DNA from: an uncultured Treponema sp.
GTDB taxonomy: Bacteria > Spirochaetota > Spirochaetia > Treponematales > Treponemataceae
Direction: 5' to 3'
Length of the DNA stretch: 64,000 nt
Assembly (NCBI GenBank): GCA_945877425.1
Contig: CAMCRZ010000013.1
Location: 1-64,000 of the forward strand
Shown: positions 18,618-64,000 of the stretch, in pieces
Layout of the letters: each line of letters begins with the position of its first letter
Position numbering within the stretch: the stretch's first letter is position 1
The notes under the pieces: generated by a model
Told to the model about the DNA's origin: nothing
The model's input: the letters and a program-made list of their open reading frames with translations, nothing else
Database searches by the model: none
Translations under genes and position numbers: made by a program

Positions 18618-19727
18618 TTAATCAATAAACTGAGTCATTTCCTTGTTGCCTTTAAACTCACCTTTTATAGTCTTAGTTGTGTGGCCAACGTATCCTATTT
18701 CGTAAGCTTTCATGTCAGGAATGTCTTTCTTTGAATACTTTTTGGCGTTTGTGTTGAATGCCTTGAGAATTTTAGGAGCGTCTTCTTTTGCAACTGCAAG
18801 CACAAATCCAATTCCCATGTTAAATGTTGAATATACGTTTTTAGGATCAGCACCACGTTTTATAAGTTCATCGAAAATAGCAGGAACTTCCCAACTGTTG
18901 TTTTTAATGACAGAGCAAAGCTGCTTTTTTCCTTCAGGAGCATGAACGTACATTCTTGGAAGATTTTCATAAAATCCGCCGCCAGTGATATGAACCATTC
19001 CGTGAACTTTTCCAGGGAACTTTTTAAGTATTTCCATTACAGGCTTAACGTAAATGCGTGTTGGTGTAAGAAGTGCATCTCCAATGCGTACTTTTTTTCC
19101 GTTAAGTGTAATGACTTCTTCAAAATCAGTTACAAGCCTTCGGATTAAAGAGTAACCGTTTGAGTGAGGGCCTGTTGAAGAAAGTCCTATAAGTACATCG
19201 CCTTCCTTGATTTTTTTGCCGTTAATAATATCTGCTTTATCTGCAACGCCTACACCGAATCCTGCAAGATCGTATTTTCCTTCATCGTAAAAATCTGGCA
19301 TTTCTGCAGTTTCTCCGCCAAGAAGAGCGCACCCTGTTTCAAGACATCCGTCTGTTACGCCCTTTACAAGTTCCCCTGCAATTTTTGAATCAAGCTTTCC
19401 GCATGCAATGTAGTCAAGGAAAAAGTTAGTCTTAACGCCTGAACAGAGGATATCGTTTACGCTCATTGCAACACAATCGATTCCAACTGTATCGTATTTC
19501 TTAAGTTTAAATGCAATGTCAAGTTTTGTTCCAACACCGTCAGTGCCACTTACCATAACAGGATTTTTCATTCCTTTTGGAACTGCGAACATTCCGTTGA
19601 ATGCACCAAGATCTGTAAGCTGTCCCGGAATACGTGCCCGTTCTGCCTGTTTGCGGTACTTGTCCACTGCTTTGTAACCTTCGTTTACGTCAACGCCTGC
19701 TTTTTTGTAGTCGATTGTTTCAGCCAT
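18618..19727 (-). CDS. purM: Phosphoribosylformylglycinamidine cyclo-ligase (AIR synthase)
   Basis: This ATP-dependent enzyme closes FGAM to AIR, the substrate of the PurE step. It has 369 residues. It begins with IDYKKAGVDVNEGYKAVD and carries GTDGVGTKLDIAF, the DCVAMSVNDILC nucleotide-binding segment, GCALLGGETAEMP and GLSSTGPHSNGYSLIR. AGGAG lies 8 nt before the ATG. It is the only purine gene in this cluster on the minus strand. It is convergent with purF and divergent from the envelope-protein gene at 19883. Confidence 0.96.
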   Translation of the reverse strand: MAETIDYKKAGVDVNEGYKAVDKYRKQAERARIPGQLTDLGAFNGMFAVPKGMKNPVMVSGTDGVGTKLDIAFKLKKYDTVGIDCVAMSVNDILCSGVKTNFFLDYIACGKLDSKIAGELVKGVTDGCLETGCALLGGETAEMPDFYDEGKYDLAGFGVGVADKADIINGKKIKEGDVLIGLSSTGPHSNGYSLIRRLVTDFEEVITLNGKKVRIGDALLTPTRIYVKPVMEILKKFPGKVHGMVHITGGGFYENLPRMYVHAPEGKKQLCSVIKNNSWEVPAIFDELIKRGADPKNVYSTFNMGIGFVLAVAKEDAPKILKAFNTNAKKYSKKDIPDMKAYEIGYVGHTTKTIKGEFKGNKEMTQFID

Positions 19728-19867
19728 GATTTATGCTCCTGAAATTGATGAGTGATTTATTCCTTTGTAAAAACTTAATCACTTTTTAAGTATATAGATA
19801 TTTTCGCATATGTTCAATGTATGGCACTTCATGCAAAACCCACGGTATACCAAAGAAATGCAAAGTG

Positions 19868-62368: not shown

Positions 62369-62439
62369 TTTTTATTTTTCCGGAGCATAATCAACTGCAA
62401 AAGAAAAACGCCGTGAAATAAGCATAAACCTTAAAGCAT

Positions 62440-62547
62440 TACCCGCTTTCCGTGGCTTACCCTCACGGCCGGTCTTTCGCTTCGCTCCAGACTTGCTCTG
62501 CAACCACTACAATCGGGGTCAGGCATTTTCCAATTCACGTGGAAAGA
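62440..62547. repeat. GC-rich repeat fused to the trpE/pabB fragment
   Basis: This segment is GC-rich and non-coding in appearance. It shares CAATCGGGGT, in reverse, with the repeat island near 1107-1116. It ends exactly where homology of the following fragment begins. It includes CTTTCGCTTCGCTCC, similar in style to the AGCAAAGCGAGGACG stretch at 1074. Confidence 0.45.
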
Positions 62548-63236: not shown

Positions 63237-63551
63237 TCAGTCCAGAGTTTTAAAATAATTCTTTATGGATTCCTGCATTACAAGAAGAAGATTTTTTTCG
63301 ATACGGTGAATACTATATCCGGTATCATTTTTTTCTGATGCATTTGCTGAGAATAATCTTTCATAGCTGACACCTAGTGCTTTTGCGATAGATTCTATTA
63401 CTTCAAGAGATGCGGACTTTCTTGCAAGTTCAATCTGAGTCATAAATGGAACTGAAATACCTGTTTTTTCTGCAAGATACTCCTGTGTCCAGCCAGTCTC
63501 TTTTCTTAATGTCCGTATGTTTCTTCCCAGAACTGTTTTTATATCATCCAT
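63237..63551 (-). CDS. XRE-family transcription regulator, possible restriction controller (C protein)
   Basis: This protein of 104 residues has an XRE-type HTH (~8-65) with the core GRNIRTLRKETGWTQEYLA, then the recognition helix region VPFMTQIELARKS. Its size and layout are like C proteins that time expression of restriction enzymes. The C-terminal ~35 residues are helical and not recognised. It is divergent from the nuclease-like gene at 63662. Both promoters overlap a perfect palindrome, so it probably represses or activates both. Its own -10 TATACT (63559-63564, minus) lies 7 nt before the ATG, without SD, so it may be leaderless. Confidence 0.82.
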   Translation of the reverse strand: MDDIKTVLGRNIRTLRKETGWTQEYLAEKTGISVPFMTQIELARKSASLEVIESIAKALGVSYERLFSANASEKNDTGYSIHRIEKNLLLVMQESIKNYFKTLD

Positions 63552-63558
63552 GACAAAA

Positions 63559-63626
63559 AGTATATTGCTATCAGCAAATATTGAAATTATCTGATAGCAA
63601 TATTATAATGTTGAAAATAGCAATAT
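63559..63626. promoter_or_regulatory. Divergent overlapping promoters with 13-bp inverted-repeat operator
   Basis: The arms ATATTGCTATCAG (63562-63574) and CTGATAGCAATAT (63591-63603) are perfect reverse complements with a 16-nt spacer. A third half-site, ATAGCAATAT, lies at 63617-63626. The right arm occupies the spacer between TTGAAA (63581-63586) and TATAAT (63604-63609), the 17-nt-spaced promoter of the nuclease gene. The left arm overlaps the XRE gene's promoter. This is the layout of an autoregulated switch. Confidence 0.75.
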
Positions 63627-63661
63627 TTTAATATAGCTGTTGGATATAGGAGGTAATTAAA

Positions 63662-64000
63662 TTGGGATTTGAAAGTGGTAAGCGAAAAGGAAATATCTGG
63701 AATGATGTTCTTTTTATTGACAGTTTGATTAAACAAAAAGGTGCTTCTACTGATAAGAAAAATAACAGTGGAATTATGAATATTTCCGGTAAAGATGAAA
63801 GAACCTTTGAAACTAGATTTTCATCTTTACTTGAAGCTAATACAGACAGATTGAACGGTAAAATTATTACTCAACAGAATAATGATACAAGCGTACAGGC
63901 TGTTTATTGTTTTGGGAAAAAGCATCGTCCTGATATGTCTGTTAATGAGGATGGAATTGCTATTGAAATAAAATATATTAATAATTCCCTTGATGGATTA
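63662..64000 (+). CDS. Partial gene: probable PD-(D/E)xK-family endonuclease
   Basis: The gene runs off the window; 113 codons are seen. It starts at TTG 63662, behind a near-perfect SD (AGGAGG). The N-terminal part is helical and charged. Residues ~88-105 contain HRPDMSV… followed by GIAIEIKYI, i.e. PD-x(n)-E-x-K, the catalytic signature of restriction-endonuclease-fold nucleases. With an XRE controller on the opposite strand, a type II restriction or related defence nuclease is likely. No methylase is visible in the window. The TTG start and strong SD suggest controlled translation. Confidence 0.65.
   Translation, partial: MGFESGKRKGNIWNDVLFIDSLIKQKGASTDKKNNSGIMNISGKDERTFETRFSSLLEANTDRLNGKIITQQNNDTSVQAVYCFGKKHRPDMSVNEDGIAIEIKYINNSLDGL

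Follow-up and report, generated by a model that had tools for sequence, protein, structure and literature searches.

The right edge of the window (the whole stretch of DNA analysed, bases 1-64000 of contig C13 in a spirochaete assembly of 42 contigs) carries an XRE-type regulator gene divergent from a truncated open reading frame with a PD/EIK motif, which raises the question of whether this locus is one half of a restriction-modification system or encodes a nuclease that acts by itself. The first-pass annotation had reported both genes and regarded them as the edge of a possible restriction or defence module, with a methylase, helicase, or other partner lying just outside the window. Both genes are indeed present, and extension of the contig to the right by the 825 bases that remain before its end at 64825 completed the nuclease at 198 aa. 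The start codon of the nuclease is supported by the fact that MGFE/MxFE forms the N-terminus of nearly all homologues in the alignment. The coding features are as follows:

63237-63551, minus strand: XRE/Cro-type HTH regulator gene, 104 aa (HTH_3, E=1.1e-12), divergent from the nuclease gene
63662..64258 (contig), plus strand: nuclease gene, start TTG at 63662, full ORF of 198 aa
63662..64000, plus strand: in-window part of the nuclease gene, 113 aa (residues 1-113)
63797..63811, plus strand: conserved acidic residues E46 and E50 in the first core helix (model helix 46-59)
63926..63934, plus strand: R89-P90-D91 catalytic motif (P90-D91 at 63929-63934)
63965..63973, plus strand: E102-I-K104 catalytic motif (strand 99-106 of the model)
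64016-64030 (contig), plus strand: QxxxY motif, Q119-Y123, outside the window

Conservation of the putative catalytic residues was examined in several alignments. R89-P90-D91, E102, K104, G118, Q119, and Y123 are invariant across 16 rows (one phage cousin among them) with a mean column identity of only 46%, and this level of conservation indicates that the PD/EIK motif of the window nuclease is not due to chance. E46 and E50 are invariant in a 15-row alignment (A3), D91, E102-x-K104, Q119, and Y123 are kept in 15 homologous loci (L024 being partly N-masked in this region), and R89-P90-D91, E102, and K104 do not vary in any of the 19 rows of alignment A7, which also includes phage cousins. An AlphaFold2 model built from 19 rows (pLDDT 82, pTM 0.83) has PD-(D/E)XK topology, with an alpha-beta-beta-beta-alpha-beta core (H46-59, E68-88, E92-94, E99-106, H111-123, and E129-136) that bears the motif on strands 2 and 3: D91 directly precedes strand 92-94, strand 99-106 carries E102 and K104, and Q119/Y123 lie on helix 111-123. 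It is close to certain that the window protein adopts the PD-(D/E)XK nuclease fold, as the initial annotation had proposed from the visible part alone, and the motif is conserved in homologues as well. An earlier structure model based on 4 sequences reached a pLDDT of 49 and was discarded.

The nearest PDB chains identified by VIA-align were BstYI (Z 7.2), OkrAI (6.8), and BglII (6.7), followed at lower ranks by other restriction enzymes, XisH, EndoMS, and SduA; these are weak similarities, all below 8 and at about 7 within the range of chance arrangements, and such values are too low for assigning the modelled protein to a subfamily. When the model was searched with Foldseek, no match with E <0.001 was found in PDB or BFVD, and the BFVD rows at E 0.002-0.01 include one PD-(D/E)XK nuclease. 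The type IIP enzymes BglII, BstYI, and OkrAI are similar in size to the window nuclease and, as the best three chains, align over 129-145 residues covering nearly the whole model. However, they share only 8-11% identity with it at Z below 8, PDB contains no sequence match to the window nuclease, and the latter has no companion methylase.

By sequence, the window nuclease matched nothing in Pfam, NCBIfam, PADLOC-DB, PHROGs, or PDB (sequence and profile searches for the last), in line with the annotation's remark that its N-terminus resembled no family known to that reader. No match was obtained either when plasmids, phages, and viral contigs were queried with the window protein or when plasmids were queried with two homologues, and no specific description of such a nuclease in integrons was found in the literature (supplements outside scope). 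Whole-genome searches detected three copies, of which two share another genome of the genus and the third belongs to a different spirochaete family. A four-row profile run against 84,980 species genomes then yielded 14 loci, 3 of them these known copies, and a further divergent copy is present in the genome of L022. Altogether, 15 homologous loci (16 with that of the window) were collected from five phyla and MAGs. The family is rare: within the genus, 2 of the 200 genomes searched carry it, and in two other classes only the seed genome was positive among 321 and 340 genomes, respectively. Two further candidates (L006 and L007, E 0.001-0.006) lie within a TPR protein and an unrelated ORF and were rejected.

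The family tree is poorly resolved and disagrees with the host tree. One Spirochaetota sequence pairs with a MAG (support 96/92), and this pair nests among Pseudomonadota and Bacteroidota sequences, apart from the window's own group, which agrees with horizontal transfer. Between the cyanobacterial cassettes L016 and L017, pS is 0.83 and pN is 0.03; synonymous sites are saturated and no pN/pS ratio is quoted, but the difference of 83% at synonymous versus 3% at non-synonymous sites indicates that the protein is strongly constrained. The cyanobacterial genome that contains L016 also carries a second copy of the nuclease, broken by a frame shift (L041, G555 C86 ~19554-19804). In addition, large viral contigs (L028 9803-10333 and L042-L054) encode a ~176-aa phage protein family that shares with the bacterial nucleases the core RPD...IAIE(V/I/F)K...GQSMxYA, and its N-terminal half differs from that of the bacterial family.

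One alternative is that the window gene supplies the endonuclease of a type II restriction-modification pair, with the XRE protein as its C protein and a methylase that the assembly lacks or that another part of the genome encodes. Candidate regulatory sites are present in the 110 bases that separate the two start codons:

63562..63603: operator-like inverted repeat (18-nt arms at 63562-63579 and 63586-63603, 89% complementary), which the whole-genome DNA search also matched to itself
63594..63632: operator half repeated in direct orientation (copies 63594-63609 and 63617-63632, ATAGCAATATTwTAAT)
63581..63609, plus strand: candidate nuclease promoter (TTGAAA-17-TATAAT, 11/12), overlapping the inverted repeat
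63631-63602, minus strand: candidate divergent XRE promoter (10/12)

The element ATATTGCTAT/ATAGCAATAT (or its complement) is found in three copies in this region. The promoter candidates are consensus matches alone, with 6 sites found versus 4.2 expected by chance. The overlap of the repeats with both of them would fit a model in which the XRE protein represses its own gene as well as the nuclease gene. Divergent XRE with operator repeats, the weak fold similarity to BstYI, OkrAI, and BglII, and a match of the regulator to Control_protein models (5.9e-13) are all compatible with a restriction-modification system. However, a generic HTH model gives the regulator a slightly higher score. As to a C protein with C-boxes, operator-like repeats accompany a protein whose HTH scores are generic, and the earlier label "C-protein-like" is not established. 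XRE regulators were detected in 3 of the 16 nuclease loci (window, L014, and L015); those of L014 and L015 resemble each other but share only 21% identity with that of the window, implying that the same arrangement recurs with different regulators. Homologues of the window XRE (up to 60%) elsewhere in the genus adjoin other genes, AbiEii among them; in one such genome, a relative lies next to an AbiEii-type gene (L069 2-1815).

The expected partner did not appear either. An ORF of 157 aa whose signal sequence is lipoprotein-like (MKKIIGLVLGTMMMLVSC) starts 17 bases past the nuclease; no relative of it was found among 97 related genomes, and it is followed by a terminator-like hairpin and the end of the contig; no methylase is present between the nuclease and the contig end (64825), and no recognised defence neighbour was found on this short stretch. 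In all three XRE-bearing loci, a secreted or lipoprotein-like gene, different in each case, starts 17-23 bases after the nuclease:

L004 2276-2749: lipoprotein-like ORF after the window nuclease
L014 10607-12850: secreted/lipoprotein-like gene, with Listeria-Bacteroides repeats and an FGE-sulfatase domain
L015 10588-11406: secreted/lipoprotein-like gene

Comparison of gene neighbourhoods across the 16 loci revealed no constant partner, whether methylase, helicase, or other gene. Based on a crude motif scan, no adjacent methylase recurs among homologues from several phyla; just two were seen, HsdM at L026 and an HNH-paired C5 enzyme at L024, and both belong to other systems. Considering also that the single-gene cassettes described below have no space for a methylase, we regard a type II restriction-modification origin as improbable, and the idea of a methylase or helicase just outside the window is not supported.

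In a close relative (G001), the DNA is 97% identical as far as window position 63334, and the last ~33 codons of the XRE gene remain at the same place while the nuclease is absent. Most likely, to judge from this remnant, the XRE-nuclease unit has been lost at this site in G001.

We then considered how the homologues are carried. Five of them qualify, or seem to qualify, as integron gene cassettes; four of these are complete, and one is less certain on its upstream side. In L017, L021, L024, and L025, the nuclease is a single ORF between attC sites with matching cores: GTTAGAC/GTCTAAC in L017, where an integron integrase lies upstream (TIGR02249, 457 bits, cut-off 265); GTTAGGG/CCCTAAC in L021, with attC hairpins on both sides; GTTATGC/GCATAAC in L024, read by eye, with the attC beginning just 5' of the stop codon; and GTTCGAC/GTCGAAC in L025, whose downstream hairpin is 4.9 standard deviations more stable than shuffled sequences. 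L025 is on the same contig as L008, and the L008 attC site was found via repeats and folding, having been missed by the attC filter. At L016, the downstream attC is strong (z -5.2), whereas the upstream one is less exact. In the L008 cassette array that holds the nuclease, an IS110-family transposase gene (L008 1300-2475) abuts an attC core and adjoins a toxin-antitoxin pair. The window copy itself (L004) lies outside any recognisable integron: a looser filter gave no attC candidate and no matching core pair was found across the gene, a negative that rests on the two tests together, since the L008 attC had escaped the looser filter as well.

Recent recognition of integrons as antiphage-gene stores concerns mostly Vibrio, and integron cassettes also carry many non-defence genes. 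The surroundings of the homologues provide further evidence, and the view of the locus as part of restriction or defence finds agreement in the defence or mobile context of several of them. In L026 (Marinicella sediminis), the gene order is hsdM, hsdS, a SIR2-domain gene, hsdR, the nuclease, and a GIY-YIG gene (PDC-S14), and the nuclease begins 21 bases past hsdR. An Mrr enzyme gene is divergent from the nuclease in L019, an Mrr_cat gene is close to it in L020, an AbiLi/AbiLii (RloB) pair lies upstream in L014, a KilA-N gene (PDC-S22) is nearby in L015, the next gene in L021 has a TIR domain, and HNH and C5 methylase genes are nearby in L024. No recognised defence neighbour was detected within the scanned stretch of L018, L022, L023, or L027; overall, about half of the loci have one, and the context is uneven. 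PADLOC matches alone were not taken as proof, because its models also match ordinary genes (1 of 10 ordinary window proteins used as control gave a strong match, PDC-S33). The SIR2-like gene of L026 (5688-6815) is itself inserted between hsdS and hsdR of the type I restriction operon. A tRNA-anchored element at L019 was not claimed, as ARAGORN gave no complete tRNA beside the locus.

These data bear on two other possibilities. The nuclease might be a toxin and the divergent XRE protein its antitoxin, maintained as a pair by addiction; the two genes are adjacent, integrons are rich in toxin-antitoxin cassettes, and the L025 cassette array contains a RelE-type pair. However, most homologues, single-gene cassettes included, have no adjoining XRE, no constant antitoxin gene exists (the XRE of 3 of 16 loci is not even the same), the XRE family of the window is found in the genus alone or beside unrelated genes, and divergent genes with back-to-back promoters fit a regulator better than an antitoxin operon, making this explanation very unlikely. 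Alternatively, the protein might serve DNA repair or recombination as a housekeeping-like nuclease of the EndoMS, Holliday-junction, or mismatch type, or it might be a homing-like enzyme carried by mobile elements and phages, as the QxxxY-type motif, the cousins on large phage contigs, and weak VIA matches to EndoMS, Bax1, and XisH might suggest. Although this would account for such resemblances, a rare and patchily distributed gene (2/200 genomes of the genus) that was lost in a very close relative and spreads in mobile cassettes is ill-suited to a core repair function, and, unlike a homing enzyme, it has no constant insertion site; we consider this quite improbable.

Instead, with moderate confidence, we interpret the window gene as a complete, stand-alone PD-(D/E)XK DNA nuclease from a rare family of ~180-200 aa proteins that moves among distantly related bacteria one gene at a time, frequently in the form of an integron cassette, and most likely cuts invader DNA. 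That the enzyme is stand-alone and mobile is well supported. A role in defence is the most likely function suggested by the cassette and defence-island context: relatives that travel between phyla as single genes, often amid antivirus genes, point to a probable single-gene defence enzyme and away from one half of a classical restriction-modification pair. Its targets would be the DNA of phages or other invaders. As no protective methylase accompanies it, cutting would have to be conditional; the nuclease might attack only modified or otherwise marked foreign DNA, act on special ends or structures, need activation, or be kept at a very low level. In the spirochaete locus, the repeats probably serve as binding sites from which the divergent XRE protein represses both the nuclease promoter and its own, which would hold the nuclease at a safe level until induction.

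Several known systems resemble such a one-gene nuclease. Shedu (SduA) is also a single PD-(D/E)XK protein working without a methylase, and 8ps5 aligns with the model at Z 5.9; however, the window nuclease is only about half as long, with no space for the N-terminal regulatory region, and it gave no Pfam or PADLOC match to the SduA family up to E=5. Mrr-type (type IV) enzymes are likewise solitary PD-(D/E)XK nucleases of defence islands and adjoin L019 and L020, but the window family has no visible added domain for reading modified bases and no match to Mrr_cat or Mrr_N in Pfam or PADLOC. A parallel in mobility is provided by integron-borne antiphage cassettes (Darracq 2025, Kieffer 2025, Getz 2025): homologues of the nuclease are single-gene integron cassettes too, whereas the window copy is in no recognisable integron. 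Chromosomal integrons of Treponema are already known (PMC3607928), and integrons in general are presented as established antiphage-gene stores in the passages of PMC12409362 that cite the three studies above. The earlier suggestion of an "undescribed system" holds only in part: the family is uncatalogued, being absent from the libraries searched, while its superfamily is that of enzymes already known, and single-gene defence borne by integrons or islands has been described (PMC12409362).

A more far-reaching version, which we put forward tentatively and consider rather unlikely as a whole, is that the window gene belongs to an antiphage nuclease family, so far undescribed, whose single-gene members spare their own DNA although they have no methylase and have been dispersed across phyla by integron cassettes, and that its spirochaete version is controlled by a repressor and coupled to a locus-specific secreted or lipoprotein gene, possibly combining DNA cutting with surface exclusion. 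In any case, the family offers a small, testable nuclease, for which complete cassettes are found in Cyanobacteriota, Bacteroidota, Pseudomonadota, and Spirochaetota, besides a copy within a type I restriction operon. If it is active, the question is how a restriction-like enzyme can transfer alone, without a methylase, and spare its recipient.

To the left of the two genes, a repeat of ~80-130 bases (window 62420-62530) has 18 further matches (82-95% identity) across the contigs of the genome. It sits in place of the missing 5' part of a chorismate-binding (trpE/pabB-type) gene, of which just model positions 91-257 are left, and G001 has a much longer open frame at this site.
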